Shown here in pieces: positions 2,341 through 59,085 of a stretch of 64,000 nucleotides of DNA. The stretch lies in assembly GCF_019059575.1 (NCBI RefSeq), contig NW_024881668.1, forward strand, positions 512,501 to 576,500, written 5' to 3'. The notes below the pieces were generated by a model. It ran no database searches, had not been told where the DNA came from, and was given only the letters and a program-made list of their open reading frames with translations. The stretch comes from Amphibalanus amphitrite (taxonomy: Eukaryota; Arthropoda; Thecostraca; Balanomorpha; Balanidae). A program made the translations under genes and the position numbers. The stretch's first letter is position 1. Each line of letters starts with the position of its first letter.

Positions 2341-3943
2341 CATGAGCCGAGGTCGCCGTTCCGTCGTACCCTTCGTACTCATTGAGCTGCCCCAGGGCGG
2401 CATCTAAACTACCACCGTCTTCACCATCACTCAGATCCACTTTCTCCACTTTAATGTTCTCAGACTCGTGCTTCGCTACCGTCTCACGACTTCGCGCTGT
2501 CGGTACTGACGATCCTGCTGCTGATGGCGAGAATGATGAAGACGGTGCTGCCGATGATGATGTGAATGTAGATCCTGACGGTGCAACAGAGGGTGTGGTA
2601 GATGAAGATGCTGGTAATGAAGGCGCTCCTTCAGCCCCTCCTCCCGCTTCTGCTGAACCCGGTGCCGGTGCTGAAGCTGCCGTAGCCGTAGCCGAAGCCG
2701 CGGGTGACATGGCCACAGCTGGACTCGGAGACGGTATTGACTGGTTGGAAGACCCCGACAGCACGACGGGCGTCTCGGGACGCCGGGCCGGTGAGGCGGC
2801 CGGCCGGGGCCACGCCGGTGCGGGTCCGGAGGACAGGGGCGCGTCCCCGCTGTCAGAGGTCCTGCGCCGCTTGGGTGGCGGGGTGGCCAGCCGCGGCGGC
2901 AGCGGGTGGTGTCTCGGCGGCGCCGGTCGGGGCGGCGGCGCAGGGACAGGGTCCGGCGGCTGCGGAGGGGACAGAATCAGGATCAGAATCGGAATCGAAC
3001 ACTGCTAATTAACTTACAACTAGAACAGTCTCCGTTTGGGGAGGCGACATAATCAGAATCAGTCGCGTAAATATTCTCCTCGTACCATTTCGCCCCCTCC
3101 CCCATAATTTCCATATCTCCAAATAACCTTTTCTTCCTCCCCACCCATCACCTCTTTTCTGCTCCCATCCACCCCCTCCCCACTCTCATTTTACGCATAC
3201 TCGTCCCAGCAATTCCCCTTCTCCATTACCTCTCTCTCCCCACACCCACCTTATCCTCCTCGCCGCTGAGCCCCCTGATCTGTAGCATCTCCGCCGTCTT
3301 GATGAAGCTGGCCAGCTGGCTCTGGGACACGTTGACACTCCCCTTGTACATGAACTCCACTATGGCGTTCAGGTCGGCGGCAGTGGTATCCTTTAGGAAT
3401 ATTACCATCTGCTGGCATGATATGCTCTGGCAATGGAAAACAATGAGTCAAATGTGGATCAGGTCAAGATAATCATTGAGCAAAACAGATCAACAAGCAC
3501 AGACTGATCAGATTGTGGGAAGTCTGCATTGGACATCACATTACAAATAGATATTATTGCCTACTCCAAACTCACTCAACTGAATTCACTATTATCACGG
3601 TGATAACTCCCCATTAGACTTCAATTGTCTTTATATGACTACATTAACTCAACTTTCACTGTATTGAAAAATCATGATATAAGTCAAACTTGCATTTCAT
3701 TTTTACTGTAATCAGCCCCCAGCTCGCTTGCTACATATTCACATCACCCACCTTCAGCAGTTCCCTGAAGTACGGACTGCAGGCAGACAGCATCATCCTG
3801 TGGGCCCGGACACGCTGTCCCTCACAGCAGAGCGTGACGTCCAGCAGCTCCCCTCCAGAGCGGAGCTGGTCAAACACGGAGGTGACACTGCCCTGGAACC
3901 CGTCCCATTTGAGGCAGAACTTCTGCGAGTCCATCCTGGAGAG
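2341..3943 (-). CDS. BTB/POZ-domain transcription factor, first three coding exons
   Basis: Three exons are supported by splice sites and phase: 3943-3752 (ATG at 3934), 3426-3250 and 2959-2341. Both first introns are phase 0 with AAG|GTGGGT donors; the last exon ends at CATG|GTGAGA in phase 1, so the gene continues off the left side of the window. The acceptor at 3944 sits just before the ATG, so a 5' non-coding exon exists upstream. Residues 1 to about 118 form a BTB domain of the tramtrack/lola group, with [28 protein letters not shown] and SPYFRELL, then a second half with FMYKGSVNV. The third exon is low complexity (Pro, Ala, Ser) with a KRRR basic cluster near residue 150 (probable nuclear signal) and an IKVE sumoylation-type motif. 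Such proteins usually end in DNA-binding fingers or a helix-turn-helix, not visible here. Role: nuclear regulator; targets unknown. Confidence 0.88.
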
Positions 3944-4188
3944 CTGTGGAACAGGGGCAAGACAGCAGTTTAGTTCATGAGAGATGGTTTGCTGAATAAG
4001 GGAGAAACATATGAACGTGAGAAGTGAAAAGGGCTGTGGAATATGGAACAAGACAGAATATTGGAGCCTGGAGGAGGGGAAAGGGAAAGGGAGGGATGGG
4101 AAAGGGAGGGGAAACGTAATGGGGAGGAGAAGCAAACGATAACTTTCACGTGCTCAGAAACTATGCACACACCTAAGCCAAAACCTTT

Positions 4189-7946: not shown

Positions 7947-8079
7947 ATGGATGTCGAAGATGAGAAGTTTATACACATACGACAGTTCTTTGCCGAGGAC
8001 GCCTGGAGAGCCCTAAGTGATCTCGAGAAGCAAGTTTATTGCAACATGAAGTCCAACTATGACAAGTTGTCTGAACTTG
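7947..8079 (+). CDS. PRDM9-like exon 1: KRAB-like domain
   Basis: The exon starts at the ATG of MDVEDEKFIHI and ends at CTTG|GTAAGT in phase 1. FFAEDAWRALSDLEKQVY followed by CNMKSNYDKLSELG has the KRAB A-box pattern (aromatic pair, acidic-x-W, W/L-x-x-L-E, Y-x-x-V/M-K-x-N-Y). The next exon, 9.1 kb away, restores Gly and continues IAGQPPSFMRAP. This is the same junction, G-L/I-x-A-x-x-P-x-FM, that links KRAB to the next exon in vertebrate PRDM9. Short and remote from the rest, so this exon is the least certain of the eleven, but phase and motif agree. Confidence 0.82.
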
Positions 8080-11000
8080 GTAAGTCCGAGCTAGCCATTT
8101 TTACGTTCATTTATGTTTAGTTTATATCATAAAAAACGTGATATACCATACACTGACCTATCCGCGTAATTTGAATTAGACAAAGGCTCCTCGAGGAGCC
8201 TAGCTTTGTCTCAGTCTAATTCAAAGTACGCGGAAGTGATGGCCTTGATTGGATCCAATCAAGGCCATCTATGGCGCCCAATTTTGTCTGTTCAGTGCAT
8301 CGAGCGGAGTTTCCACGACGCCCGTTATTGGAATTTCCAAATACGCGAGCCGTTATGCGCCAAACTTCATATAGAAGCAAACATTGGGGTTCAGATTGTT
8401 ATTATGAGTAAAATGTAAGTCATTTTCTTCATTAAAGGGACACTCCCACCTTAACATTAGTTTTGAGTTGAGATAGCCAAATTGGTGGCCATGGCCTGCA
8501 AATACCGGTTTGGGCACTCACAACATCGAAAAATGCTTTAATTCGAAGATATGGAATTTCAAACTTGCAGTTTTCGGATTCTAAGGGGCTAATGCATTGG
8601 AATGCCCCCTTAGAATTTGTGACGTCAGCGGAGATCTAACGATTTTTAAATCTTAGACTAAAACCTATTTTTTTTTTTTTTTAGTGGCCTTATATATCCT
8701 CGGCCTGGCGAGGAGGAGGCTATCCAGCTCGTGAAGCGAGACCGGTGGCCACTTTTTAAGGCAGAATAGGGAAACCCACGCAAATGTAATTTTTCAAATA
8801 AGTGGAATTATTGGTAATATAGGCCAAAACACCTTATTATATTACATGTGCGTGGGGAAAACCCTATTATTTACGTTACGAGGTTTTTGGGTCCTTACCT
8901 CCACTAACCTTGTCTGGATTGTGATGTAGTTGATGTCGGTTGATCTCGTCGGTTGATGTAGTTTCAGGCCTGGTCGGCTGTTCCGGCCCAGTCTCTGCCC
9001 CCGCCCGCGCCGCCTTGCGCCTATCACCGCGGGGCGGCGCCCCCTGACCACCGGCCCGTCCAGCGCGGGCCACAGGCGGTCCACGCGACGGGCCGGCGGC
9101 CCGGCCTGCCCAGCAGATGCTAGGCGGCCGGGCACGGGTTGGCCCGGATGGGGTAGGGCGGGGGCGGCTCGTTGAGAGTGGTTTCATCAGGCCCGTTGGC
9201 TCGGGTCCGGCCGCTCTTCCAGACCCAGAGCCATCGGGATATTGTGATGTGAGTATATGGTAGTTGGGATTGAGCTGCTTCGGTACCGCCCGAATATAAC
9301 CGTTGAGGTCCAGGTCCAGCGTCTCTCTCAGATCCTGGACCGCCACAAAGCAATGAATCTGTTGGGAGCCCAGCTGGCCTCTACTTCAGATCCGAGCGTC
9401 CCGGGCAGATTGTTCGTTGCTACAATAAGAGGTGTCCTACTAGTCTCTTCATAGCTTGTCTACATAGGGGGAGTTCATTATAAATTCAAGGACTAGGTCA
9501 GTTAGATCCGGGTAATCATTCCCTAGCAATGTACTTAGGTTGTTCCTCAAACCATGATGTCTTAAATAGTTATTTATGTGAAGCCGATTTTGGACAAGCC
9601 CTATGCACCCTATAAGGATATGCTCGACCGTAAGCCGCACGTCGCATGTGGGACAGATGGGCGGGGCTGTACGGTCAAACAAGTGGCTATGTGTTGCACG
9701 TGTATGTCCGCACCTTAGTCGAGCTAGCAATACTTCACGTTTCCTGCTGCTTTGGGAGGCTGAGGGCCACGGGCATAGCTTGGGCTTTATGTTGAATATG
9801 TGGTTCGAATGATTGTGTTCCCACTTTTCCTGTAGGTATTCGGCAAATTTCATCTTCACTGTGTGAAGAGCGTCTCCTAGTGATACTTTCAGGTCTTCAT
9901 GGACAGGGAGCAGCGCAGCTTGTTTGGCTAGTAAGTCAGCGGAAACGTTTCCCTCGATTCCCGAGTGACCCGGGATCCAAAGAAGGGTAACATGCTGGTC
10001 GCTTGGGAGCGACGTAATTAGGCGATGAATTTCGTAAATTCCGGGATCTGTGAAGTCTTCGCTTCTTTGAAGGGCCTGGAGAGTAGATTTAGAATCTGTG
10101 CAGATCGTTGACTGAGGGATACGGTTGGCTTTGATATGAAGCAAGACTTTGTTGATTGCGTAAATTTCAGCCGTGAAAACCGTGCTGGTATCCGGAAGGC
10201 GCGCCGAGAATCTAAAGTGTGGTCCTACTGCGGCAGCACCTACTCTGTTGCTGTGAGCCGAGCCGTCCGTAAAAAAGAAAACGTCTTCCTCGTTTGTGTA
10301 TCTATATTCGTGGAAGGCTGATTGGATATCTGTTTGTGATAGGTTTGCTTTCTTTTCTTGAATAAGGTAGATGATTGAGAGATCATTGTACTCCCAGAAT
10401 GGCATTGGTGGGGGACTTGCGGCTAGGTTCATATCTGGGATGTTAAGGATTTGTCGGGCATGTTTAACAGCATCTGGGAGGCAGCATATGGGTCGTCGAG
10501 GTTTCCGCGTGTGGGGTTGCGCAGTCTCCAATGCTATTGACGCACCATGGTTTTTAACGCAGTTTGTTTTGTAGTAGTATCGGAGGATCTGAAGAAGTCT
10601 TCGATCTTCCAACGCTGGTAGGTCAGTGTCGGCGCGAAGGGCGAGTATGGGTGAGGTACGGAATGCTCCTGTTATCAAGCGGAGACACATTGATTGGATA
10701 GTTTCTAGTCGTTTTGAAAGCGTGGGTGAGATAGTGCTGAAAATGTAGCTGTTGTACTCAATTGTTGATCTGATCAGGCCTATGTAGAGCGTTTTCAGAG
10801 TCTTTCGATCTGCTCCCCATGAAAAGCCGGATATGCACCTCAATACATTGACTCGTTTCAAGGATCGAGCTCTGATATCTTCGATGTGGTCTCTGAACGT
10901 CAAGTGCGAGTCAAGTGTAATTCCGAGGAATTTGTGAGACCGTTTATAGGGAATGGGCTCAGTTCCTACTTTGGGGGATTGGGCCAGGGATGGGATCGGT

Positions 11001-14000
11001 CCACGTTTGAATATCATCATTGCCGACTTGGGAGCCGATATAAAAAAGCCCCATTTAGCGCACCACTCGACACAGTGATCCAACGCTTTTTGCAAGATTG
11101 AAAATGACTTTTCAACATTTTTGTTTGCACACCATAGAACTAGGTCATCTGCAAATAGTGAGTATCGGACGGAGGTTAATGACCGTGGAAGTGTGAGAAA
11201 GATGTCATTAATGGCTATCAGGAATAGAGTTGGAGAGAGAACGCTGCCTTGTGGGACACCGTGTTCAAGGAAATGAGTACCTGATAGAGAGTTCTGGCAG
11301 CGAACTTTGAACGACCTGGTCTGTAGAAAGTTGCAGAGGAAGTGAGCCAAGTGTCCTCGGATGCCTAGTGTGTACAGCTTGTATATGACAGTCTCGCGGT
11401 GAATCTTGTTGAAGGCAGAGGTAAGGTCAAGAAACACCGCGATAGTAGGACATTTCCGTTTCCAGTTTATTTGTATGTCCGTTACAAGGCGCGCTATGTT
11501 GTCTGCTGTAGAATGATGACTTCGAAAACCGCTTTGGAATGGGTCCAGTAGAGACTTGGTCTCAAGGAAATATCTCAGCCGAAGGTTTATCATTCGTTCT
11601 ATAATTTTACATGAGCAATTGGTCAACGATATTGGCCGATAGGAGTCTACGGCTTGCCGGTCCTTGCCCGGCTTTAGAATCGGGATAATTATGCTTTGAA
11701 GCCAGGATTCTGGGAAAGTGTGACTGTTCCAGAGCTTGTTTATCGCTAAAAGGAAGGTTGTTTGATTTAACTCATTGAGATTGGTGAAAAAGGAGTACGG
11801 CATTGTATCTGGACCTGCCGATGTTTTATCCTCTGATTTGTTAAGCGCCAGCTTCAGTTCTTTTAGTGTAAAAGGGGCATTGTATGTTTCTGTGTTATCA
11901 GAATCAAAATTAAGGTTGTTTGTTTTGCTCGTGAGCTCTAAGTGGACATTTGGTGGAAATATATTGGACGATGAAGCGTTTGAAAAATGCTGTGCAAAGG
12001 CGTTTACTACTTCATCGCATCGGGTGATCGGCATACTATTCACTGTGAGTTGTGGGAAGGACCTCACTGTATTCCTGCGGGAGGAAAAGGAACGTACTTG
12101 TCCCCAGATTTCACTGAGTGGGGTCGTTCTGTTACACTTTGAAGCGAATTCCCTCCATGCATCTTGCTTTTCACGGCGCAATGTTTCAGAACACGCTTTC
12201 CGAGCCTCAGTGTACAGCCTAGCATGGTGGTCACATATGCAACGCTGAAAGTCGTTAACACGTGGTGGTATACGCTGCTTTGCGCGCAACGTCTGCCGCA
12301 CTTTAAGGCTGCCAAATTATTGCTTCCAAATAAAGTCGCTAGTAACAGGGGAGATCCCAAAAAGCAAACAAAAGTAAAAGCCTAATGGGGCATTCCACGT
12401 CAAATCGAACAAAAATCGGCTGTTTTGCACCTTACCATCAGCGATTTCATTATAAATTTGTGAGCGAGTTCCTGTGTCGCCCCGAACATTACATTGATGT
12501 TTTTTGCACATTCTGACCAGAGGTCTTCTAAATATAGGGCATCGAATTTTTACAAAATGTTGCATCTTTATATTTTTGAACGACCATAACTTTGGTTGTA
12601 CTTGTTTGATTTGAATGAAATAAACCCCACTGTTTAGGTAATTTCTTAAGCATTTGTTTAGAATTGCACCTACTTAAATATATGACCTTGAAATTTGCTC
12701 AACTCTGTTCTTAAAGCGACCCTCCCACCTTCAAAAAAGTTAATGAATTGGCGTGAAAGTGATGTCACTCGGTTCAGAAAGAGCAAAAACGAATATCTAC
12801 CAAATTTCATCGAAAAATATTCACCGGTTTTCAAGATATTAGACTTTTACTTTTGTTTACTTTTTGGGATCTCCGCTGTTCCTAGCGACTTTATTTGAAA
12901 GTGCGGCATTTGTTGCGCGCAAAGCAGCATATACCACCGCGTGCTACAAAACGTTTTAGTCAAACATTTAACGGACGTTCGAAAGCCTGATGACGTCATC
13001 AGATTCCCGTAATGGTTAAGAGATAGGGACCACGCTGGTCCCACCCTGCAAGTAAAGGGAAGAAATTTCTTGAACACCATAAAGCTGCGGGGGTTGCGAC
13101 CAGGATAAATGGTGGTTTCTGAGCCTGGCCGCAAACTTGGCTATCTCAACTCACAACTAATGTTAAGGTGGGAGGGTCCCTTTAAGCACAAAAATTGAAA
13201 TAGCAAAAAAAACACGTCACCTTAGATTTGGCTAATTTTCATGTATTTTATTGCCTACCATATTCTTACAACCTGTGAAAAAATTAGAGTGGGCCATTCA
13301 TAAGTTTTGAAGAATATGGCACATATGCAAACGTATGTTAGCACGCGCAGTGGAGGGGGAAGAGTGAATTTCGCCTCACCCCTCCTGTTTTTCGCCAATA
13401 TCTCATAGTATTAATGCGAAATTAATTATAGCTACCTGTCCAAAATTGAATTGCACATCTCATCGTGCAAGCAAGAAGAAAATCGGTTCACAACTGTTCT
13501 AGTAATAGCGGTGTAAAGTGAACAAACATCCTGTCGCCGCGGCGACGCGGCGACTCGGCAGCCGGCGCCGACCGCTAGCCGCCGCCTGAATTGTAGACTG
13601 TGCCGGGACGGAACGGAACGGTTCCGTCTTTACATCGCGCTCCTTACCTCTGATTACGTTCGATTCGCGTCAAATTTTGTGAGAAGACTAAGAAATGTAC
13701 AGGCAATCTTATGGTGTAAGAATTTTGAAAATCAGTTGGTAAACAATTGAAATATGAACATGTAAACACAAAATTGTGATTGCTGCGTTTCCCGCGTCGG
13801 CCGATCCCGCCTCAGCCGGCGACATGTTACTCTTAGCAGGTCTCTAACTGCCATATTTATTATTAGATTAACTAGAAATTCCCCATACAAACTCAAAAAT
13901 GTATATTCTTTCGTATAGTGAAGATAAAAAGACGAAGATATCGTTGCGTGATAATGTTTTCGTTGAATTTTTGGCTTGATGATGCATTTCCACACGGCTC

Positions 14001-17000
14001 AAAATTCACCGCAAAATACCGTTTGCCTGAGACACTTTTACTATGGAACTTGAATGCTTGACTACGATGACGATGTATTTCCATTCTCGCAGAGTTTGGG
14101 ATATCACTAATCAGCAATCATTCATTTCAGAAACTGTACACAAGCAAGCATGTCTTGACTCTGTCTTTCAAGGTCACGCGCGGTTGCGTGATGTTGATGC
14201 ATGAAAACGGCGTTTGCCGCGAGAGTTATGAATGACCCACTCCAATTTTTTCACAGATGGTTAGGAACATTGTGACGGACATAATATGTAAAAATTACCC
14301 GAATCGAAGGTGACGTGTTTTTTGCTATTTAAATTTTTCTGTTTTAATTCAAGGTCAAATGCATTTCAAGGTCACTTCAATTTAATTTTATGATTAAAAA
14401 TCAAAGCCTTATCAATTGCCTACAAGACCCTGTTAATATCATTTTGATACCAGAAAAGGAACCAGAGTTATAGACATTTAAAAAATTGATGTGTGGCATT
14501 TTTGGCTATATTCGATGACCTATATCTTAGCGATACTTAATCAAATTTCGAAAATATTATACGTAACTCAGTTTTGAGCCATGCCCAGTCTGCCTACAAA
14601 TTTTCAGAAAAATCGAAGGGGATGACGGATTTCGGTGTTTGATTTGACGTGGAATGCCCCTAATGTCTTGAAAACCAGTGAATATTTTTCGGTGAAATTT
14701 GGTAGATATTCGTTTTCGCTCTTTCTGAACCAAGGGACATCGCTTTCATGCCAATTCATTAACTTTTTTGAAGGTGGGAGGGTCCCTTTAAGCGGTTGTT
14801 TGTCTATGTGGCGATCATTTATTAAGCACATCAACGAACGATATCATACTAGCTCCATTTTTTGCCAATTGCCAGTATACCTGGTTCATGGTTGCGGGCT
14901 GCGCCTGCGGCCGAGTGCGACGGTGGCGCCGACTATCGGCTACTCGTGCAATTAGGTCTCGTGGTTGCTCCGGCGGCCAAACTTCAGATGAAAATGTCCC
15001 TGCAGGGACACTGTGCAGTGACCCTGTGTGAAGACTTAAGTGAGCCTGGATGCCGGGTGCCAATCGACCGCCTTTGTGTCAGCGGCTGTGAAAACATCTA
15101 AACAAGCGAGAGTAAGATTATAATCGTCTAATTTATGCAGATCTCAGGTATGAGAGTTTGCTGTTGTGTCGGCCCAGGACTGGCTGTGTAACAGGATTTG
15201 GTTTGATTTACCGGCTCTGTTTGACCACCGTGGTGATCTGGGCCCTGTTCATGAAGTCTGCGGTCGCTGCGGCCGGCTGCACGTTCTAAGCCCCGCCCAT
15301 TTTTGAAACGTCATCACTCACTCGGCCGCAGCAGCGTTCCATGAACAGCGTCTGCTGCCGAAATAGTTTCCGACAATTGTTTACAACTGAAGCACACCGC
15401 TAGATAATTTTTTTACAAAATCGTTTCCATGACAACATGGCTTGCGCCTATTTGACTTCAGTGCGCCAAGTTCAGTGCAATCAGTTTTCTTGCGGCTCGG
15501 CGGTCGCTGGATTGCGGCCGCAGAGATCGCAGCGGCCGCAGCAAGGTGACGTCATACATTCTTCATACCAGGGATGCGGAGCCGGAGCCGGAGTCGGAGC
15601 CGGAGCCGCCGGAGCCGGCATATTTTGCCCGGAGCCGGAGCCGGAGCCGGAGCCGTGAAACAATATAGCCCGGAGCCGGAGCCGGAGCCGGAGCCGCCAA
15701 AAAAGGGGGCGACTCCGGCTCCTTTTTATTTTTTGAAGAGAAAAAAAAAAACAAAATAATTGACCTAGTTCGGTTTGACAGTACAAGGCAAAACATATGG
15801 TACTTACGTCATGGGCCATCAAGTGAATGAAAAAATCCGAATATCCCCAGTATCCCACAGTACGCAAACAACTTCCTGTTTGCTCCCCCCCCCCCCCACG
15901 TCTACTGCATCCCCAGAACATGAGGACCAGTCATCAGGTGACGGCCATTGTTTTCAAACCAGTGCAGTGGACTGCGACTCCCAGCACCGTCTTATCCCAC
16001 ACACCCCCCACCCCTCACCCCCCAATGCAGCCGAGACGGTTGTCAGCTTACGATGGTTCACTGAACTCCGATTCGCGGCGACTGCGTTTCCAATGCCATC
16101 GCTTCCTAGCCCCATCCATCCGTGCTTCTATCCTCAGGATACTGAAATCCTTCTCCTCCACGCCGCAACCCCCCTCCGGGCTGGACAGGCAACTTTATCT
16201 CATGCGGGCTGCTCCCTTGGAGCGGCACCGCTGCTCCTGAGGGAGCGCACCCCGTAGCCGGGTGCAGTGAGTGCCTTGGGGCTGAGTGGCCTGTCCTCTG
16301 GACGGGCTCAGCCCCGGCGACTCACTAGGGTGCCTGCCCAGACCAATGTCTCCCCCTAATTCCTATCATCCTTCCGGCTCTGCAATGGTCTTGTCGACCG
16401 AAAGGGCCTAACCCAACAAAACAAAAAAAGCTTCCTAGCCCTTTGTTCTGCCAGTTCTCTCCGAGGTGCGTTTGCGCGGGGACGCGGTGAGCCGGTCATG
16501 GCAAAGAGTAACGCGTATAACCAATCCAATTTTTCTTCCACCCGTATTTAATTGATTGCGTAGGGGATGTACTGAGTCGGAGCCGGAGCCGCCGGAGCCG
16601 GACCATTTTACTCGGAGCCGGAGCCGGAGCCGGAGCCGCCATAACATTTCACCCGGAGCCGGAGCCGGAGCCGATTTTTTTCTCCGGAGCCGGAGCCGGA
16701 GCCGGAGCCGTCTGAAATTTCCACGGCTCCGCATCCCTGCTTCATACTACATGAGCTCCGCCCCTTTTCGTGACGCAACAACCCGGCTGACCGCAGCGGC
16801 CGCAGCGACCGCCGTGCGCCGGGGTTCATGAACATGGCCATGATTCGGCCTTTGGTTAGGCAAGGTTACACCACCGGCACCAAGATAGGCGTGCCTAGGA
16901 GTTGATGCCAATTAACCCAATGCCAATGCCAGTTTTGTGTACGATTAGCCAAACTGTTCATCGGCTTTGCCACTGGAACGGTGCGGCAGTCGTACCTATG

Positions 17001-20000
17001 AGAAAGGAAGGTATGCAGTATGCACTATGTCCGCCACGCCGGAAAGGTGTTAACGCGCCCTGTAATCCCTCCCCCCCCATGCCTATACACACGAATACTG
17101 CTGTCGTTTGGTTAGAGCACGGCCCCAGCCCTCCATTTATGGCTGACGACTCCGCCAGAAATCCAGGAGAAGCAGTTAAGTGTCCCATTATCGGCTGAGT
17201 GCTTGTGTCGATCCCCACACAGGCATCGCGGGCCAGCCGCCATCGTTCATGCGCGCCCCGCCGCCGCCGCCGCCGCCCCGGCCGGCCCGACCGAAGCGTC
17301 CTCGACCAGCGAGGTCGGCCGATGACGGCGACGATGACTGGAGCCCGTCGCGATGCGTCCGGCCGGCCCAGCGGCGGTCGCGTTCCACCGTGCGACGTGG
17401 CGCCGCCAAGAGCAAGTTCCAGCCGCCGGTGAAGAGGACAGCGACGGTGACATCGGCTGAGGTTGGTGGGGAACTGTTGGGCTGGTGGTGGCTATCTTCT
17501 CTGTAAAACACGGGACATGTAACATTGTAGTCCGGAGAGGTAGAAAAGCATTTTACATTTTTACATTTTACACAGCATTTTGCATTTCAAAGTTGTGTTT
17601 ATTGTAGGACAAGGTAGTAATTACTTGGTAGTATTTAATTAGGTAGTAATTTACACCCATGCTTGCTAGTTATCGAGTCATCTACCGTTCAATAATATGC
17701 CCGAGGCTGGAAGGTCATCGCTTGGCTTTCTTGGAGTATCTTATCGGCACCTGTCACTATATTTCAGACGGCGCCTGCTGCTTCCTCGACCGTGTCCGGT
17801 GACGTCCAGTCGCAGGAGCGGCGGCGGTTCACCACAGAGGGGGCGGCAGCAGAGGAGGCGGACCGGTCTCCGCACCGACCGCCGTCGCCGCCGTACGATT
17901 TCATCGGCTTTACGCTCGAGGATCAGTTCAAGTAAGTAATGACAGCGAATGTTATTGTGAAAATTTCCAGATACCTGTCTATATCTATTGATAGCTATAA
18001 AACTAGCGACATTTTGCTGTAATTACAACGACTGGCGCTTTTGGATTACATTTTGGCGTATTATTTGTGGATATTTACTGTTATTTGGCGTTCGATTTAC
18101 TTTTCGCACACCTGCAAGGCAAGATTCAAGGGCCTTTCTTTATCGCCAAATAAATGAACCTCCAAGACCATTTTATGTATGGTTTGACAGGGCCCGGCAC
18201 GCTGTGGACACGAAAGCTGAATTGCTGTGGAACCACATCATCGCCGAGTTCAAGGACTTGGGAGAAGGTAATGATCGTAATCACCATTGTCACTGGTATG
18301 AATAGCATGTCCTAGAAAAGACACCATTTACGGTCACGATCGGTTTTGGCGTTTATCGTGAGACCAAAAGCTTTGCCCGGTATGTACTTTACGCGAAGGC
18401 AGCTGGATAATAGCCGTTTTCACGACGGGCTATCCGGCGAATGCACCTGATTTGACCAAATCTGCACCTAATTTCTTTTACAGCAAATATCTTCATTTTA
18501 TGAATTTATTTCAGTGTTTTAATCGATGATGCTCTCTGATAATATGACAAAGCAGGCATATAAGCAATTATTGCAGCCCTAGCTGATAGCTGCTAAGAGA
18601 CACACTGAACCTGATTTGACCAAATTTGCACCTAATCTGTACCAGATGTGCACCAAATGTGTACCAGATGGCCGTCGTGAAAACGGCCAATACTTCAGCT
18701 GGTGCTCTGGTGGCTATGTATGTTACATTGAGTGTTCGGGCATGACGTGATGTAATGTCAAATTCCACAGAGCCTCCCGAGCGGGAGGTGTTCAAACGAC
18801 GCCGGAACACGGTCAACTACCGGGAGGAGGAGGACCTGGACGACGACGACTACATCTGTGAGTAACCAGCTACCGTCTCATAAACAAACAACACTCAACC
18901 TGTCAGTCTCCACATTCTGCTGTGTATTGTACGGTCGTATCGGCCGCAATACGTGGTCTTGTTTTCCGAGTCTTCAGTCTTTTTACAGAATGAAATGACC
19001 TCTTTTTCGTGTTGTTCCAGTCTGTGACGAGTGTGACCGCGAGTGGGAGGGCGACTGTCCTGTGCACGGACCGCTGCAGGTCGTACCCGACACCAAGGTA
19101 CGGAACTCGGGAGGGGACCGCTAATTGCCCTCGCTCCGTTTGTACGTCTGTTGGCATTAATTGTGTTGGTTTGAACTCCGGTCGATCACATAAATCATGC
19201 GATGTGTTTGTAAGTAAGCTATAGCTCGAGCTACCGTTGCTCATTATTTTATATCATCTCGCCGTAGCAAGTGGTTCGAGTGGTAGTTACTACTTTTGTC
19301 ATGCTATGCTCGCTAAACTATTTAAATTGAAAAAAGTGTTCCGTGTTATTCTTTTCGCAATCATTGAACAATTATCAGCGGTTAACTACTTATTGTGATC
19401 ATCGCAACACGCTTGCACACTGCACAGGTCCCGTTCGACATTGGCGATCCAGAAAGAGACATCAAGACCCGTCCCGAGTTCCTCAACCCGGGCCGGTCCA
19501 AAATCCCCGGAGCCAACACTGGTAACATCCTCATTATTTATCCTGATCACTTGATTATGGATCCCCGCTTTGTTGGTTCACGATCTTCTAGGACTGTATT
19601 GATAGGAATCGTTCTTCTGTAGCGTCAATAAAGTGTTGTCATGCCGTTTCCTACAGTTCCTCCATCTCTTGTTGTCCACATTAAATATCCTGCGGCGGTG
19701 ATGTATTCCTTATCGCGTTCTGAAGTATATTATACATTGCCAATGCCTCCTGATTCTGTTCTCGGCAGGCTGTGTTTAGCCTATGGACAGTAACTACCAG
19801 CGTCACTGACCTGTACCCCCCCCCCCCCCCCCGTTCATCGGCACACAGGCATTTGGACGGAGAAGGACCTGCCGGCGCGGCTGAGGTTCGGTCCCTACGA
19901 GGGCATCGTCACCGCCGACCGACGCCAGGCCACCGACTCGGGCTACAGCTGGGAGGTGAGAGAGCGGCGGGTCTGTGGTGGGTCTGCGTGGGATGCATTT

Positions 20001-21985
20001 TGGAAACTAAATATCGATCGCGCTTATCGGGAAACAACAAAAACGGAACCAGCCAGGGAAATTGAGAGATTACCATTTTTGAACCAACTCAGATATTTGC
20101 ATTAGTGTGGTTCATGAGCAGAATAAAATGAAACACCAATCAATCCCCACGCCGTATTACTGGTTTGGTGTTAGAAAAGCCGGTGTCTGATTGACATTGC
20201 TGTCATGGATGAGAAAGTAGTCTTCAACATCTCTGTGATGCTGACACCCTCGATAACTAGTGACTCTTAACTTCTTGTGTTGTAATTAAACGCTAAACGG
20301 CCATTGAGTATTGACTGATGCACACGAACGGGTTTGCAGATTAAAAAGTGTCGGCGCGTGCACCACTACGTGAACGCCGGCGACTCGAGCTCCAGCAACT
20401 GGCTGCGGCTGGTCAACTGTGCCCGCTTCGAGCAGGAGCAGAACCTGATCGCCTTCCAGTACAAGGGCCAGATGTACTACAGGTAACGGTGAACGTGTCT
20501 AGCGCAGACCTTACCCTATAGAAACTTGTTCACTGCTTCTCACGGTAGCTGTCATTTATCTATACAGTTATCGGCCTCATATGGTCATTGTGTGCTGGTT
20601 TTTGGCAGGTCAGAAACAATTGTTAAGTATTGGAATATTACTCTGTTATAATAACAGCAGCTTAGCTGTACTGCTCTCTGATCTCCATGGTCGTCTTTGG
20701 TGATGTGCCAATTTTTATTGCGTTTTTTTATTGCGTTGTTACCCGTTTTGGCAGCAGTGATTTTATTCGATACGTGATTGTTAGCGTGAGTGCGCACAAG
20801 ATTCATCACTCGTCATTTTCTGACTCATAATTGCACCGTTTGTCATGGCCACAGGACGTACAAGCCGATTGTGAAGGGCTCCGAGCTGCTGGTCTACTAC
20901 GGAGACGCCTACGCCCGGGAGCTCAACATCAACGTACAGACGTTCAGGAAGGCTCCGGCCGCCGCCCCTCCGCCAGCAGCCTTCGTGTCAGGTGAACGAC
21001 CGAATATAGCATTTTCGGTAGAACAGATATATTACAAAATGCTTAGTAGTTGGCCAATCAGTAAAACACTTGAAAAACGTCATTTTTCCGCGAGACATGA
21101 CTGGCTGACTGCCATCCTCTAAGGCAGACTGACTAGAGCGACATCTATGTTACTGGCCGTCTCATCTAATAGATAAGTAGACAAGCGCAACTATGAGCTT
21201 CAACAAACTGCACATAAAGTCGCATGTTGATAGGTACGCACATACATCCATGTATGCTGGTTTGTGGTAATCAGTGACATTCGCCAGGTGGCTCCACGGT
21301 CCGCTGCGTCCACTGCGACTACGCCTGTCTGGGACAGGAGCGGCTGGACAGGCATGTGAAGACATGGCACGGTCACATCGGCAGGAACGGACGGCACAAG
21401 TGTGAGTGGTGCGAGTACTCTACAAACGATGTGTGTAAATTGAGTCGCCATCGCCTCACCCACACGGGAGAGCGGCCCCACCGCTGTGACGAGTGCGGCA
21501 GGACGTTTACTCAGCTCATTAGTCTGACCCGTCACCGCCGTACACACACCGGCCAGAGACCGTACGTGTGTGACGTCTGTGGGAAGGCGTTCACAGAGAA
21601 CGGTCACCTAACGACCCACAGACGGATCCACACCGGGGAGAAGGTACGTCAGTGTGAGCAGTGTGGGGCCGTGTTTAACGATCTGTCTAATTACACCACA
21701 CACATGCAGTCACACAACGGAGTGAAGCCGCACCGGTGCCAGGTGTGCCCGGCCCGGTTTGTTAAACAGGCGAACCTCACCACACACATGCGGACTCACA
21801 CGGGGGAGCGGCCGTACGGGTGCTCCTTCTGCCCGGCACGGTTCGCGGATCAGTCGGTCATGAGGAGACACGTCATCGCCCTGCACACACACGACTACCG
21901 ACACAGGTGTGGGCGGTGTGGTAAGGGATTTGTTAGACTCAATGAAATGAAGAAACACAGTGAGAGGTGCACGGTGACCAGCTGA
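7947..21985 (+). CDS. PRDM9-like: PRDM9-like histone methyltransferase (KRAB-SSXRD-SET-zinc finger), 11 exons
   Basis: Eleven exons join with consistent phase to 1956 nt (651 residues plus stop): 7947-8079, 17223-17461, 17768-17931, 18191-18267, 18771-18857, 19021-19097, 19428-19521, 19849-19955, 20340-20482, 20855-20991 and 21288-21985. Domain order is a KRAB-like segment (residues 1-44), an acidic DDGDDDWSP motif, SSXRD (about 204-234), a C2HC knuckle, SET/PR (about 290-405) and eight fingers (about 422-648). In vertebrates PRDM9 places H3K4me3 and H3K36me3 at sites bound by its fingers and so positions meiotic recombination; that this protein does the same is inference. SET residues NCAR, EQNLIAFQY and ELLVYYGDAY are kept, so activity is plausible. 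No frameshift or internal stop is seen. The finger array is diverse, unlike the tandem near-identical array of mammalian PRDM9. Confidence 0.9.
8160..8232. repeat. Imperfect palindrome in intron 1 of the PRDM9-like gene
   Basis: The arm CCGCGTAATTTGAATTAGAC with AAAGGCTCCTC meets GAGGAGCC..TTTGTCTCAGTCTAATTCAAAGTACGCGG. The arms are about 33 bases and centred near 8196. It lies about 80 bases behind the first exon and directly before a second, perfect palindrome. Confidence 0.75.
8238..8269. repeat. Perfect 32-bp palindrome
   Basis: The half-site GATGGCCTTGATTGGA is followed at once by its exact reverse complement, with no spacer (centre GGATCC). Function unknown; it may be the end of a small foldback element. 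Confidence 0.85.
8436..8665 (-). mobile_element. MITE-A copy (TTAA family), 3'-truncated
   Basis: It starts with AGGGACACTCCCACCTTAAC after a TTAA (8432-8435) and matches the reverse complement of the right half of the complete copy at 25597-26085. The similarity stops near GACTAAAAC at about 8665, followed by a T run, so the other end is missing. Confidence 0.75.
8690..9448. other. Intronic GC-rich stretch, no confirmed gene
   Basis: A GC-rich block (8940-9240) allows an open minus-strand frame of 156 codons (9346-8876). Its start (DLRETLDLDLNGYIRAVPKQ) looks less repetitive than its proline and arginine-rich remainder. I recognise no domain. It lies downstream of the minus-strand non-LTR element and may be part of its 3' region or of another element. 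Confidence 0.3.
9449..12255 (-). mobile_element. Non-LTR retrotransposon (NLR-B), 5'-truncated, RT and RNase H frame open
   Basis: A single open frame runs from the linker between endonuclease and reverse transcriptase through RT, RNase H and a C-terminal zinc motif to a stop at 9449. RT landmarks are GFRSHHSTADNIARL, NGVPQG-like HGVPQGSVLSPTLF and the catalytic FADDLVLW. RNase H has FFTDGSAHSN and WIPGHSGIEGN. The apurinic-type endonuclease is missing. The frame formally extends to 12301, but its first residues (RAKQRIPPRV) are encoded by an adjacent MITE-A fragment, so the true 5' truncation is near 12250. Elements with this order belong to the I/Jockey/R1 group. It sits in intron 1 of the PRDM9-like gene, in antisense. 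Confidence 0.88.
12387..14660. mobile_element. Long-inverted-repeat DNA element with TAAT duplication
   Basis: It begins GGGGCATTCCACGTCAAATC and ends with the exact reverse complement. TAAT is repeated at 12383-12386 and 14661-14664 and is present once in intact MITE-A copies. Beyond the ends, diverged inverted similarity continues inwards for many hundred bases (for example the CACGTCACCTT.GATT block at about 13213 and 14314, and GTGAAAAAATT.GAGTGGG at about 13276 and 14250). No transposase is seen, so it is non-autonomous. The superfamily is not assigned. Confidence 0.8.
12715..13181 (+). mobile_element. MITE-A, complete copy nested in the TAAT element
   Basis: The copy is 467 bp with ends AGCGACCCTCCCACCTTC and TTAAGGTGGGAGGGTCCCT, flanked by TTAA (12711-12714, 13182-13185). 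Together with its surroundings it makes MITE-A inside a TAAT element inside MITE-A. TTAA duplications and these ends suggest a piggyBac or Kolobok-type family; no transposase is present. Confidence 0.85.
15246..15352. repeat. GC-rich palindromic element
   Basis: CTGTTCATGAA..GCGGTCGCTGCGGCCG at the left is mirrored by CGGCCGCAGCAGCGTTCCATGAACAG at the right, about 107 bp in total. A second, related structure starts near 15490 (GCGGTCGCTGG..GCGGCCGCAG) and closes near 16833 (GCGGCCGCAGCGACCGCC..GTTCATGAACATG). That second copy is split by the hAT-like element. Confidence 0.6.
15569..16739. mobile_element. hAT-like non-autonomous element with GGAGCC arms
   Basis: The element begins CAGGGATGCGGAGCCG and ends CGGCTCCGCATCCCTG. 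The 8-bp sequence CTTCATAC stands directly on both sides (15561-15568 and 16740-16747), an exact target-site duplication of hAT size. Terminal CAGGG also fits hAT. Both subterminal regions are filled with GGAGCC hexamers (15576-15712 and 16575-16720). The middle part holds C runs and a stretch with no convincing coding sequence, so a transposase must come from elsewhere. It is inserted in intron 1 of the PRDM9-like gene. Confidence 0.9.
17223..17461 (+). CDS. PRDM9-like exon 2: proline-rich linker with DDGDDDWSP motif
   Basis: The acceptor CCCCACACAG ends at 17222 and the donor is GAG|GTTGGT. The exon opens with IAGQPPSFM, then a polyproline run, then ARSADDGDDDWSPSR. The acidic patch ending W-S/T-P is a conserved element between KRAB and SSXRD in PRDM9 proteins. 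The following basic stretch (RRSRSTVRRGAAKSK) could serve as a nuclear signal. The donor lacks a strong consensus at +4 to +6. Confidence 0.8.
17768..17931 (+). CDS. PRDM9-like exon 3: charged linker
   Basis: The acceptor is TATATTTCAG and the donor CAA|GTAAGT is strong. The frame that keeps phase reads TAPAASSTVSGDVQSQERRR and ends in YDFIGFTLEDQFK. A longer open frame in another phase over the same bases is a shadow. No known domain is recognised. Confidence 0.75.
18191..18267 (+). CDS. PRDM9-like exon 4: linker
   Basis: The acceptor is GGTTTGACAG and the donor GAAG|GTAATG. It completes the split Lys codon and reads ARHAVDTKAELLWNHIIAEF, a helix-prone segment of unknown function. It is kept because phase matches on both sides (2 in, 1 out). 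Confidence 0.72.
18771..18857 (+). CDS. PRDM9-like exon 5: SSXRD motif
   Basis: The acceptor is ATTCCACAG and the donor ATCT|GTGAGT. The residues REVFKRRRNTVNYREEEDLD then DDDYI match the SSXRD pattern of PRDM9: basic R-x-R, V-x-Y, an acidic run and DDDY. SSXRD is a repressor-type segment also found in SSX proteins. It leads directly into the zinc knuckle of the next exon. Confidence 0.85.
19021..19097 (+). CDS. PRDM9-like exon 6: zinc knuckle before SET
   Basis: The acceptor is GTTGTTCCAG and the donor AAG|GTACGG. FCDECDREWEGDCPVHGPL carries the C-x2-C-x7-C-x3-H spacing of the zinc knuckle that precedes the SET domain in PRDM9. Both exon ends fit the phase of their neighbours. Confidence 0.87.
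19428..19521 (+). CDS. PRDM9-like exon 7: pre-SET linker
   Basis: The acceptor is CACTGCACAG and the donor CACTG|GTAACA. It reads VPFDIGDPERDIKTRPEFLN and ends SKIPGANTG, leading into the G-I/V-W-T start of the SET domain. The segment corresponds to the linker between knuckle and SET in PRDM9. Confidence 0.83.
19849..19955 (+). CDS. PRDM9-like exon 8: first part of SET
   Basis: The acceptor GGCACACAG is preceded by a C run (about 19816-19832) that serves as the polypyrimidine tract. The donor is GAG|GTGAGA. It reads GIWTEKDLPARLRFGPYEG, the start of a PR/SET domain, and ends GYSWE, both well conserved in PRDM9. Confidence 0.9.
20340..20482 (+). CDS. PRDM9-like exon 9: SET core
   Basis: The acceptor is GGGTTTGCAG and the donor CAG|GTAACG. 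It contains HHYVNAGDSSSSNWLRLVNC followed by AR and EQNLIAFQYKGQMYYR. The NCAR motif and the EQNL-x-AFQY segment line the cofactor and substrate pockets in PRDM-type SET domains. No key position looks replaced. Confidence 0.92.
20855..20991 (+). CDS. PRDM9-like exon 10: end of SET with catalytic tyrosine
   Basis: The acceptor is TGGCCACAG and the donor TCAG|GTGAAC. It reads TYKPIVKGSELLVYYGDAYA then REL. The ELLV-[WY]-Y-G motif holds the tyrosine that PRDM9 needs for methyl transfer. An alanine and proline-rich tail links to the finger exon. Confidence 0.92.
21288..21985 (+). CDS. PRDM9-like exon 11: zinc-finger array
   Basis: The acceptor is ATTCGCCAG and the TGA is at 21983-21985. Eight fingers follow each other: CVHCDYA.., CEWCEYS.., CDECGRTF.., CDVCGKAF.., CEQCGAVF.., CQVCPARF.., CSFCPARF.. 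and a last C2HC-type finger ending HSERC. Linkers are TGERPH, TGQRPY, TGEKVR, NGVKPH and TGERPY, typical of DNA-binding arrays. The presumed base-contact residues (-1, 2, 3, 6) differ in every finger. All fingers lie in one exon, as in vertebrate PRDM9, but they are not a fresh tandem minisatellite. Confidence 0.95.
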
Positions 21986-25277: not shown

Positions 25278-25543
25278 ATACCGTACGTAGCGCTCACCAA
25301 GAGTATTCACACTTCCACCCGCTAGATGGCAGTAGACGCGTCGCCTGAATGGTATACTGCACCGCAGCGCTCGCCAAGAGTATTTTCACCTCCACCCGCT
25401 AGATGGCAGTAGACACGTCGCCTGAATGGTATACTGTACCGCAGCGCTCACCAAGAGTGTTTACACCTCCGCCCGCTAGATGTCGGTAGACGTCGTCGCC
25501 TGAATGGCAAGATTACTTTCAAGATTACTTTCCTGAATGGTAT
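25278..25543. repeat. 77/78-bp satellite, left block
   Basis: Three copies of a unit containing GCGCTCACCAAGAGTATTTT, CCGCTAGATGGCAGTAGACG and GTCGCCTGAATGGTATACTG. The same unit continues at 30425, on the other side of a mariner-type insertion. Confidence 0.85.
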
Positions 25544-29205: not shown

Positions 29206-30424
29206 TGCAGCAGCACCCCAACTGTGGCACATGGATATGCATTGCCTAGTGGGTGCCTACCTACATACCAACTTTCAGCGCAATCGGCCAAGTAGTTACC
29301 AAGATATTGCAACAATTGCAAAACTGACACCTCTTCGTTTTGCACGTGGCACGTGCATAAGCGGTCACCCACATGCATCGAGAATAGTCCAATACTTGGT
29401 AGAAGGAATGAAACTACCCTAGAAAAATCATCGAATGTAAATCGGTCAAGTGGTTGCTGAGATATAAGCCTCGCAAAAGCGTAACCACGGCCGGCCGGCC
29501 GCTCATACTCAGAAATTTCCGTTAATCTACGAAAGACTACGCTTGCTTCGCTCGCTACGTAATAATTTCTTCAGACTAACAATGCCTCAGCCATATTGGC
29601 ACGCTACTGGCTGAAAATAAGTTGCTTAAAAAGACCCACTGAATCGCCACGATTTTAAGTGCATGTCATCTCTATGTATATAAGATCTCTATGTCAGCGA
29701 CTCCAGGGTGGGATGAAAGGTGGCCAAGAGCTTATTTTGCAAAACGCGTAGCATGCCTTAGTCGAGCGGGTTAAGGCTAGGAGAATAAGGTGGCCTAATC
29801 TCATTTCACTATGGTGATCTGGTCCGCCGAGCTCCTCTGTCAGTTTGGTTTAGACGGCAGCGGCGTTGTTGGGGGGGGGGGGGGGAGGGGGCGCTCCGTA
29901 GTGTTGAAGTGCGAAATGACCCTTAGGGCAAGTCGTCTTGATTCTCGTGTCCAGGAACCCCTCGTGGACCAGTCTGTCATTCATTTATTTGACCTTGACG
30001 AGGATGATTGAACATTTGTGTCCATCAGACCCCAGATTTTCTTCGATTGCCGCTGAAATGCTGCTTCAGTCTCAGCAGCTTTGGCATACCGTGGTCGTAC
30101 GGAGTGGGAATATTTTCTAAGAAATTTCCGATGCGGAATGCACCTTTGCCTGCTCAACCGTTCGCCGGGAAACGCCGCATCGCGCTGCAACTCGCGCCTC
30201 GTTCAAGCCGCAGCGGGCCCCCGCGCGCGGGCTCTCAGCGACAAGGCGCATCTTCGCCCATATGCCTATCACTGAAAACGGTTTCAAACTTCAAAGTCAT
30301 ATTTACGTGACCCCTTGCTGAGCGGTGAACGAGGGGTCATATCTGTGGTGATTGGTTGAAAGTCTAATAATCACAGCGCGCGTTAGACGACGTCCAGAAG
30401 CGCCAGGACTTTCCGGACACCCTG

Positions 30425-30730
30425 TACGCAGCGCTCACCAAGAGTATTTTCACCTCCACCCGCTAGATGGCAGTAGACGCGTCGCCTGAATGGTATACTG
30501 TACCGCAGCGCTCATCAAGAGTATTTTCACCTCCGCCCGCTAGATGGCAGGAGACGTCGTCGCCTGAATGGTATACTGTACCGCAGCGCTCACCAAGAGT
30601 ATTTTCTCCTCCGCCCGCTAGATGGCAGGAGACGTCGTCGCCTGAATGGTATACTGTACCGCAGCGCTCACCAAGAGTATTTTCACCTCCGCCCGCTAGA
30701 TGGCAGGAGACGTCGTCGCCTGAATGGTAT
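30425..30730. repeat. 77/78-bp satellite, right block
   Basis: Four copies of the same unit as at 25278, with the CTAGATGG marker at 30463, 30540, 30618 and 30696. The 78-bp length keeps one frame open through the copies, which gives a spurious ORF. Confidence 0.9.
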
Positions 30731-31223: not shown

Positions 31224-31921
31224 GCACACTCACCGACCCCTGCGCCTGTCCAGACGGCTTGCTCCTCTTGTTTGTTTATTGGGGCTTTAGGGCGCGCCGA
31301 CTGCGAAGGTCATTTTGCGCCCATAACGTCACACTAATAAAACAAGTGTTTCAAAACAAGAGACCTTCTATATACCAAGGCTAGAAAGTAAAAGACTTGA
31401 TAAAAACGACAAGGTAAGATAGAACAACGCAAGAGCGTCGTAACAGTCAACTGACTAGACAAGTAGACTAGAGAGGAATTGGGTCAGGTTGAGTAAATCA
31501 CTTGGAAGTTGACCGAACGCTGTATCTCCTGGCGAACAACGTCTGCTAGTTTCTCCTCCGCGCGGTCCCGGTGCCAGCAGATGGGCGCTCGCCTGGCGAC
31601 CGCTCGGTCCGAGGCCGAACATCAGTGTACCCTGGGCTCCAAGTACGGCTGGGTGGGTGCCACTGATGAGGCCACAGAGGGTGTTTATGTTGGTGAGGAT
31701 GGTCTAGTGGTGATGACTATCCCCACCACCTGGTGGCAGCCGGGTGAGCCGGGTGACGTCACTGGTGGAGAGAATTGCGTCATGACGGGAGGGAGTAGGC
31801 CGTGGGCGGATGCGGCGTGCACAAAAACGTATTACTATCTGTGTCAGTTGTCAGCTCTGTCAGCAGAGGGTGACTTACCATGGACAGTCAGCTGCTTCGG
31901 TACCTCGTTGGTCAGATCATG
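31224..31921 (+). pseudogene. C-type lectin domain exon split by a retrotransposon tail
   Basis: After an acceptor (CCCGTTTTCAG) the exon reads GTLTDPCACPDGLLL up to 31267. It resumes at 31520 with CISWRTTSASFSSARSRCQQ and runs to a stop at 31919-31921. The second part has CTLD marks: C..MGARLATARSEAEHQC, YGWVGATDEATEGVY, WWQPGEP in the sugar-site loop region, and the final ENCVMTGG..WADAACTKTYYYLCQL cysteines. Such proteins bind glycans, often outside the cell, but no signal peptide exon is seen in the window. Between the parts sits 31268-31519 of the 3' end of a non-LTR element in antisense. Unless the insert is removed by splicing, this gene copy is broken. Confidence 0.8.
31268..31519 (-). 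mobile_element. 5'-truncated non-LTR retrotransposon tail (NLR-C type)
   Basis: The sequence matches 55415-55675 of the NLR-C copy, from the TTATTGGGGCTTTAGGGCGC end to GTAAATCACTTGGAAGTTGA, the last codons of ORF2. It begins with repeated TTGT, as at 883. It lies inside the CTLD exon. Confidence 0.85.
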
Positions 31922-34282: not shown

Positions 34283-35257
<975 letters not shown>

Positions 35258-41136: not shown

Positions 41137-41241
41137 TCGTTTTTCTACTCAATCTTTTAAACAGTCTTATCGTCTTCTTGGGCTGTTTTACGTCTGGACG
41201 GGCTTTTTAAGCGCTTCTGCGCCTCTTTTACTGTCTTCTCC

Positions 41242-55820: not shown

Positions 55821-56583
55821 AGGCGGCCGCACACTGGGCCATTCGGCGGGCGAGATTCCGCAAAAGCGGAATTCCGTAGGCGACATTACGCCTCCGCGGA
55901 CGCCGAACCAACCGCCGAAACGAAAAATGTGGCTGTGAAGGGTCGGCAGCCAGCTGTTCACGGACAGAGTGCGCATGCGCGCGGACAGCCGCGGAATCGC
56001 GGAAAAAGCTGAACCGGTTCAGCTTTTTCCGCGACTTCACCGCGGACAGCCGATATTGTGGAACTTGATACTCACTAACTATTGATGGTGTGGCCGAGAA
56101 ATAGACTTAATTTGATAAGAAAGCCGTAATGTTATTTCTTTCCTCGCAATAAATGGCTCTATGCACTAAACTGGCTATTCAAAAAGTAGGTTGATATGTG
56201 CCTCTCCACAATTGTCTTTAGGTTTCTTGCATTTGTCGACAAACACGGTTGTTTACATTAATCACGAGCTTTATTTTTTTGCAACTTCCTCCAGAAATTA
56301 TGTCAAATTAATAGATATTCAAAACTTTATTGTACAGAAATATAGCATAATCGTATTAAATAAGCAAATATTGTATTTCCTTAAATGTATTTAGTTTGTA
56401 TTCGTTTATATTTATCATAAAATATTTCACATAAAGTTCCTGAAAATACTAAGTAGAAAATCGCATCGCCGAATCGTCCCGTAAACTGCTGAAAACAAGC
56501 GGAAAGCCGCTGTAGGAATGTCGCCCGCGACATTCCGCTTTTGCGGAATCTCGCCCGCCGAATGGCCCAGTGTGCGGCCGCCT
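55821..56583. mobile_element. 763-bp DNA element with TGA duplication (PIF/Harbinger-like)
   Basis: The ends AGGCGGCCGCACACTGGGCC and GGCCCAGTGTGCGGCCGCCT are perfect inverted repeats, which continue inwards for about 50 bp (CATTCGGCGGGCGAGATTCC). TGA is repeated at 55818-55820 and 56584-56586. A second hairpin with GCGGAAAAAGCTGAACC lies near 56008-56035. It has no transposase. Three-base duplications fit PIF/Harbinger, but TGA is not the usual TWA. Confidence 0.85.
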
Positions 56584-58845: not shown

Positions 58846-58857
58846 CCCTAGTGAAAA

Positions 58858-59085
58858 AGTCCTTAAGGATTTCGCCAGAATCCCCACAATCCTTAAGGAT
58901 CCATAAGGACCCATAAGGATCAGACATGAAATCCTTAAGGACTCTACGGACTCTCTTGAATCCTTAAGGACGCATTCGCCGATCCGTAAGGATTTTAGGG
59001 CGATGTTTGGTATCCTTAAGGATCGCTCAGTATTCCGTAAGGAAATTGCTACTTGCTAGTGTCGCTTAATCCTTCAGGATAGCCG
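58858..59085. repeat. Left array of the ATCCTTAAGGAT motif
   Basis: Sites such as AATCCTTAAGGATC, AATCCTTAAGGACT, GATCCGTAAGGATT and TATCCTTAAGGATC recur with variable spacers. Each is a near-perfect palindrome. Confidence 0.85.

Follow-up and report, generated by a model that had tools for sequence, protein, structure and literature searches.

Structure and domain composition of the window gene

The 64-kb stretch of the Amphibalanus amphitrite genome analysed here (hereafter the window) contains a gene of 11 exons on the plus strand (7947-21985), which reads as a single frame of 651 amino acids followed by a stop codon. All ten introns have GT-AG borders and all exon phases are compatible. 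An earlier note on this DNA had described this phase-matched chain and its 651-residue frame, and its exon ends proved correct throughout. The exons, together with the first intron, are:

7947-8079 (+): exon 1, with the start codon and, in residues 1-44, a KRAB-A-like domain matched by a profile; same exon at 19 loci
8080-17222 (+): intron 1, 9.1 kb, containing a minus-strand element with reverse transcriptase and RNase H (9452-12316)
17223-17461 (+): exon 2, post-KRAB PPSFM motif, proline-rich stretch and acidic DDGDDDWSP motif
17768-17931 (+): exon 3, fast-evolving linker with a YDFIGF motif at its end; pN/pS 0.92 (9 copies)
18191-18267 (+): exon 4, helix-like conserved segment of the KRAB-SSXRD interval; pN/pS 0.08 (14 copies)
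18771-18857 (+): exon 5, SSXRD-like motif, present at 21/21 loci; pN/pS 0.08 (15 copies)
19021-19097 (+): exon 6, PRDM zinc knuckle, with Pfam and PDB matches
19428-19521 (+): exon 7, pre-SET region and start of the PR domain, with a Pfam match
19849-19955 (+): exon 8, PR/SET, with the Tyr equivalent to human Y276
20340-20482 (+): exon 9, PR/SET, with a VNCAR motif and the Tyr equivalent to Y341
20855-20991 (+): exon 10, end of PR/SET, with the Tyr equivalent to Y357
21288-21985 (+): exon 11, an array of eight zinc fingers at about 21305-21970, followed by the stop codon

Profile, Pfam and PDB matches support the KRAB-like domain, SSXRD, zinc knuckle, SET domain and eight fingers that the earlier note had read in this frame along with an acidic motif, and the HMM check that it proposed matched KRAB, SSXRD (both with our own profiles) and the PR domain (Pfam PF21549, E 2e-40). 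Profiles were built from vertebrate sequences (12 PRDM9 sequences for KRAB, 10 sequences for SSXRD) because the window protein had no match to the Pfam models of KRAB and SSXRD, even at E<=10, and the exon-1 peptide, searched by itself against the PDB, matched no KRAB chain. Among 1996 ORFs of the window, the exon-1 ORF ranked first for KRAB (E 9.3e-9, next 0.87) and the exon-5 ORF ranked first for SSXRD (E 0.0084, next 1.8). Taken alone, SSXRD is the weakest of the domain calls, yet its exon is present at all 21 loci described below. The zinc knuckle matched PF18445 on a sub-fragment (E 2e-5; 24.6 bits, below the cut-off of 25.8), and the motifs of exon 2 resemble the vertebrate 'RPAFM ... 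DEEWTP' in a comparison with proteins P0033 and P0038. The finger array lies entirely in the last exon and consists of seven C2H2 fingers and a last finger of the C2HC type. Its predicted DNA contacts (positions -1, 2, 3 and 6) read GERR, DCKR, QISR, EGHT, DSNT, KANT, DSVR and RNEK for fingers 1-8. Between KRAB and SSXRD, a DF[IV]GF motif (window exon 3, 17890-17931; proteins P0001-P0034) is shared by both barnacle groups and Periplaneta, and the sponge protein P0187 has a similar motif, EFIGF.

The top database matches are A. amphitrite proteins annotated as 'PRDM9-like', with 96% identity over residues 1-420. Three annotated full-length siblings from three loci (P0001, P0002 and P0003) show the same chain of exons and domains as the window gene, and their contacts are identical to those of loci L009, L013 and L017. 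These siblings, together with a KRAB exon that always lies upstream of the SET exon, argue for the predicted junction of 8079 to 17223.

The window also contains the following features:

3734-4153 (-): beginning of a BTB/POZ domain; a BTB gene probably has its first coding exon here and extends to lower coordinates
9452-12316 (-): reverse-transcriptase ORF
25289-25507 and 30422-30730: two tandem arrays separated by 5 kb, whose 77-78-bp units resemble each other in sequence
31518-31871 (+): C-type lectin domain
34530-35256: TC dinucleotide repeat, about 364 copies, 99% identity
35773-36432 (+): reverse-transcriptase ORF
41161-44961 (+): reverse-transcriptase ORF
56384-58963 (-): reverse-transcriptase ORF

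Three of the four reverse-transcriptase ORFs carry RNase H. The public protein P0004 joins a similar lectin (89%) to a PRDM9 copy; it is probably a gene-model chimera, and the fusion indicates that lectin and PRDM9 genes adjoin in another assembly too.

Catalytic residues and family placement of the PR/SET domain

The window PR/SET domain has tyrosine at all three positions aligned with human Y276, Y341 and Y357, which Baker et al. (2017; PMC5519329) give as the catalytic residues, and the catalytic tyrosine claimed in the earlier note is thus intact at all three sites. The best PDB match of the window protein is PRDM9 (2e-48), followed by PRDM11 (4e-24) and PRDM14 (9e-20). PRDM11 shares the PR domain and knuckle with the window gene and is the second-best PDB family. 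A PRDM11 identity was rejected on its much weaker score; unlike PRDM11, which has lost the Y341 equivalent, the window gene keeps this tyrosine, and it has a finger array.

In a tree of 56 PR domains, the barnacle copies group together (support 100/99) and join insect PRDM9-like sequences (94/95), with horseshoe crabs and a tick placed elsewhere. PRDM1 stands apart (100/100), PRDM14 is unseparated and the inter-phylum backbone is weak (34/83), so that the tree agrees with membership of the PRDM9 group without proving it. The assignment of the SET domain to this group in the earlier note therefore stands on the separation from PRDM1 and the best PDB match, with deep branches weak and PRDM14 unseparated. 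Overall, the window gene is confirmed as an intact, complete PRDM9 architecture in the barnacle A. amphitrite.

A family of PRDM9-type loci in the barnacle genome

A family search of the 807.6-Mb assembly returned 87 exon matches to the PR family, which is a lower bound. The window and 20 further loci with a window-type exon make up 21 loci of the window type. About twenty copies of a complete PRDM9-type gene in one genome are a new observation; the earlier note, which had reported an intact copy in a probable arthropod, was right about the arthropod, but its single-gene view missed this 21-locus family, which is visible only genome-wide.

Where whole, exons 8-10 of the 21 loci share 98-100% protein identity (exceptions: L017 exon 10, 93%; L027 exon 8, 97%), and exon 11 shares 82-92%. 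The SSXRD exon was found at 21/21 and the KRAB exon at 19/21 loci, and all 19 genomic KRAB-exon matches lie upstream of a window-type SET exon, on the same strand and at a distance of 9-31 kb; one of them covers residues 1-33 only. The two loci without a detected KRAB exon (on C951 and at the end of C1313) are both near contig ends. Exon-11 matches at all 21 loci are free of internal stops, and the array of L028 reads as disrupted.

Five copies lie on the window's own contig (C171) and five on contig C428; no second copy was found inside the 64-kb window itself. L021-L024, all near contig ends, share one common array (L023 differs by one residue in length) and are probably one locus assembled several times, and the family therefore comprises at most 18 distinct arrays. 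Some loci may also be two haplotypes of one gene. Simple allelism of the window copy with the other loci was rejected, as flanking identity is patchy in 7 of the 20 loci compared; for L019, the 98.7% identity of intron 9 to that of the window runs counter to ruling out allelism.

Selection on SET exons and DNA-contact codons

The SET exons 8-10 are nearly frozen (pN 0.0028, pS 0.0443, pN/pS 0.06; 16-17 copies) and are under strong purifying selection. Copies dropped for length from the exon comparisons numbered three each for exons 2 and 3 and two for exon 10. Codon analysis of the fingers used the 15 of 21 arrays that are distinct and full-length, leaving out L022 and L024 (no difference from L021 within the exon-11 match, counted per finger block) and L010, L011, L023 and L028 (no ungapped 232-codon match; L011 was truncated at the edge of the extracted segment).

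DNA-contact codons of fingers 2-8 are under diversifying selection. At these codons (-1, 2, 3 and 6) pN was 0.400 and pS 0.230, compared with a pN of 0.029 and pS of 0.089 (pN/pS 0.33) at non-contact finger codons outside the helix. Relative to the pS over all codons of fingers 2-8 (0.109), contact pN was 3.76 times as high (bootstrap over fingers 2.68-4.99); the excess at contact codons alone is 1.74-fold because their own pS is raised, an indication of some hypermutation at these sites or of changes spanning several bases. A codon model gave an omega of 2.70 at contacts (likelihood-ratio p 4e-6 against omega 1) and 0.36 at the remaining codons (p 6e-11), both from a tree-based estimate with kappa fixed at 1 that ignores recombination, which breaks its tree assumption. 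None of 20000 random sets of 28 codons was as divergent as the contacts. The encoded residue varies at 25/28 contact and 49/166 other codons, and contact sets differ in 15/15 distinct full-length arrays. Finger 1 serves as an inner control outside this diversification: its contacts are near constant, with GERR or GERK in 20/21 loci (L010, which deviates, differs by one residue in length).

How the finger arrays change

Nucleotide identity is 47% (0.467) between the fingers of one array and 88% between copies of the same finger, so that each finger keeps its own framework. A finger minisatellite model was rejected on the within-array value. The window array is a mosaic that has fingers 1-5 in common with L025: the two differ at 3/432 nt in these fingers and at 29/246 in fingers 6-8 (p 8.6e-11), and their introns 9 differ by 19.5%. 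Against L019 the window copy shows 1.3% difference in intron 9, 29/432 nt in fingers 1-5 and 8/246 in fingers 6-8; this comparison is non-significant alone (p 0.077).

For a given finger position, 25 pairs have equal contact sets, compared with 6.7 after shuffling; they agree at 3.8 of 4 codons, and common descent can account for part of this sharing. At different finger positions there are 15 such pairs (4.9 expected) with 1.6 of 4 codons identical; contact-set pairs are not mutually independent. Because so few codons are shared, we rejected the movement of recognition helices from one finger position to another and preferred convergence on DNA-reading helices. Over all pairs, 8/735 finger blocks are near-identical (<=1 nt difference), compared with 4.4 expected; two pairs contribute five of these eight, and the overall signal of exchange between loci is modest. 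Such exchange is evident in the window copy, and the other copies give no more than a hint of it.

A second, KRAB-less barnacle group

The A. amphitrite gene set also contains 38 other proteins with 44-66% identity to the window protein over aligned parts, and KRAB or SSXRD matches above 5 bits were absent from 38/38. This second group comprises loci L037-L041 and proteins P0006-P0031 and P0158-P0169, and all eight members that were aligned have Phe in place of Y341. It thereby resembles teleost PRDM9-beta, in which no KRAB or SSXRD is detected and of which the swordtail form has Y341F according to Baker et al. (2017; PMC5519329); the window gene, with KRAB, SSXRD and Y341 present, is of the other type. 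Six second-group loci were fetched and five used (L042 lacks an array of at least four spaced fingers). Their contacts, compared in register, gave pN 0.076 and pS 0.056 (ratio 1.37), against pN 0.410 and pS 0.107 (ratio 3.84) in the counterpart test of the window group. Baker et al. (2017; PMC5519329) describe the complete four-domain gene of vertebrates as the form with rapidly evolving fingers and intact tyrosines. The contrast between the barnacle groups is graded and leans towards this vertebrate rule, with five loci being few and the second-group ratio not below 1. The KRAB-less Y341F copies offer an in-genome comparison for the idea that fast finger evolution is tied to the complete domain set.

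PRDM9-type genes in other arthropods and known systems

The view in the earlier note that insects as a rule lack PRDM9 is not borne out in the protein database searched, since 5 of 32 tabulated non-barnacle arthropod proteins have both KRAB and SSXRD together with four or more fingers; the table derives from search results, one of which gave the best 120 of 510 matches. The five are public gene-set predictions from Diploptera, Cryptotermes, Frankliniella fusca (two) and F. occidentalis (one), and the other proteins of the table have parts of the KRAB-SSXRD-finger set, many being marked partial. Arthropod PRDM9 as such is thus not unique to the window gene, because its siblings are already annotated 'PRDM9-like' and the cockroach, termite and thrips predictions have the full set. 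Like the barnacle copies, the PRDM9-like proteins of Periplaneta, Cryptotermes, Diploptera and Frankliniella have a PR/SET domain of the PRDM9 group, with YYY where aligned. Unlike the barnacle arrays, those of Periplaneta and Cryptotermes are homogenised and mammal-like (non-contact identity 0.93/0.92, contact identity 0.39/0.35). In the Periplaneta americana protein P0034 the eight fingers are near-identical, with differences mainly at contacts, and the predicted protein has no KRAB match. Many PRDM9-like entries are found within single species in Frankliniella and Dreissena, and large PRDM9 families may for this reason extend beyond barnacles.

Vertebrate PRDM9 (Meisetz) has the same KRAB-SSXRD-knuckle-PR/SET-finger set, three catalytic tyrosines and diversifying contacts, but at one or few loci compared with 21 in the barnacle. 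Mammalian PRDM9 has a homogenised minisatellite; the barnacle, with fingers 47% identical, has none, and change apparently proceeds by contact substitutions and exchange between loci. Outside vertebrates, Prdm9 of Nematostella, Lottia and Capitella was reported to change rapidly at positions -1, 3 and 6 of its fingers (Oliver et al. 2009; PMC2779102). These genes are like the barnacle family in their fast finger change and unlike it in the concerted evolution among the fingers of one gene described there, where the Capitella copies are termed alleles or rapidly diverging paralogues (PMC2779102). The section of that paper dealing with these genes mentions arthropods only for the absence of PRDM9 in the fly. 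Within the open-licence PMC literature, we found no paper combining PRDM9 with barnacle, none combining PRDM9, arthropod, KRAB and SSXRD, and no title on arthropod PRDM9. Rapid finger evolution outside vertebrates is known (sea anemone, limpet, worm), and the many-locus family of complete genes with non-homogenised arrays is new.

A candidate ZCWPW1-type partner

A zf-CW family search of the genome identified two sites that are near-copies of each other, L043 (C122:706175) and L044 (C433:367618), each followed by a PWWP exon on the same strand. The CW and PWWP exons are predicted to be joined in one gene, with Pfam matches to zf-CW (4e-9) and PWWP (3e-7). Against PDB, the CW part matched ZCWPW1 best (1.2e-12; MORC4 4.4e-8, ZCWPW2 4.8e-8) and the PWWP part matched NSD2 best. 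CW and PWWP together we take to be the mark of ZCWPW1/2 in animals, and a putative ZCWPW1-type CW-PWWP gene is present in the barnacle genome. ZCWPW1 has been found to follow PRDM9 in vertebrates (PMC7494361).

Proposed role and alternatives

The barnacle genes contain the parts expected of PRDM9, under the expected selection, and the steps proposed below are adopted from knowledge of the family. Mammals place recombination by one PRDM9 gene; twenty complete PRDM9 genes in one genome are, to our knowledge, unprecedented, and we know of direct evidence for PRDM9 steering recombination in vertebrates only. By analogy, we lean towards the reading that the family is a many-locus PRDM9 system in a crustacean, which would place meiotic breaks. 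Each protein would bind its own DNA motif in germ cells via its contact residues, its SET domain would trimethylate H3K4 (and H3K36) at bound motifs and its KRAB part would recruit break-making partners; meiotic breaks would then form at the marked sites, and the putative ZCWPW1-type CW-PWWP protein would read the marks and assist repair. Loss of targets would favour new finger specificities, which would arise from contact-codon substitutions and in-register exchange between loci, not from unequal crossing-over of a homogenised minisatellite. More tentatively, the approximately 18 distinct complete arrays could place breaks jointly, their specificity turning over by selection on contacts and block exchange between loci (a Red Queen process).

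The main rival is germline defence, in which complete PRDM9 proteins would have diversified like KRAB-ZNF proteins and silence transposable elements or satellites instead of placing recombination. Repeat silencing is the better-known role of multi-copy zinc-finger families, and many copies with diverging contacts fit such a function, as does a genome rich in retroelements, several of them inside the window. Multi-copy expansion of KRAB-ZNF genes against retroelements is documented (PMC4592553). Nevertheless, the nearly frozen, intact catalytic centre is of the H3K4/H3K36 type and would set an activating mark ill-suited to silencing, the ancestral PRDM9-type KRAB does not bind TRIM28 in the human protein (PMC8835667) and a ZCWPW1-type reader appears to be present, which together make this explanation less likely than the placing of breaks.

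The copies could also be ordinary PRDM transcription factors of germ-cell genes whose contacts differ by subfunctionalisation after duplication, in keeping with the action of most PRDM paralogues as transcription factors (PMC5519329). The difference of contact sets among all 15 distinct full-length arrays, an omega above 1 at contacts and a window array that joins fingers of different lineages render this improbable. Relaxed decay, with redundant copies drifting and array differences being neutral, would account for the disrupted array of L028 and for the KRAB exon undetected at 2/21 loci (both near contig ends); it is very improbable given purifying selection on SET (pN/pS 0.06) and on frameworks (pN/pS 0.33), exon-11 matches free of stops at 21 loci and an omega of 2.7 at contacts, beyond neutrality. 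A mis-joined gene, in which the KRAB-like exon is part of a different gene with no splicing between it and the SET gene, might be suspected from the predicted join across a repeat-filled intron of 9.1 kb, but is scarcely credible with the same exon order at 19 loci and in P0001-P0003 and with compatible phases.

With about twenty complete copies, catalytically intact and diversifying at their contacts, this crustacean would open the age of PRDM9-directed recombination to tests outside vertebrates, and the barnacle family would pose the question of how self-erosion plays out in a system that divides its specificity among many loci.
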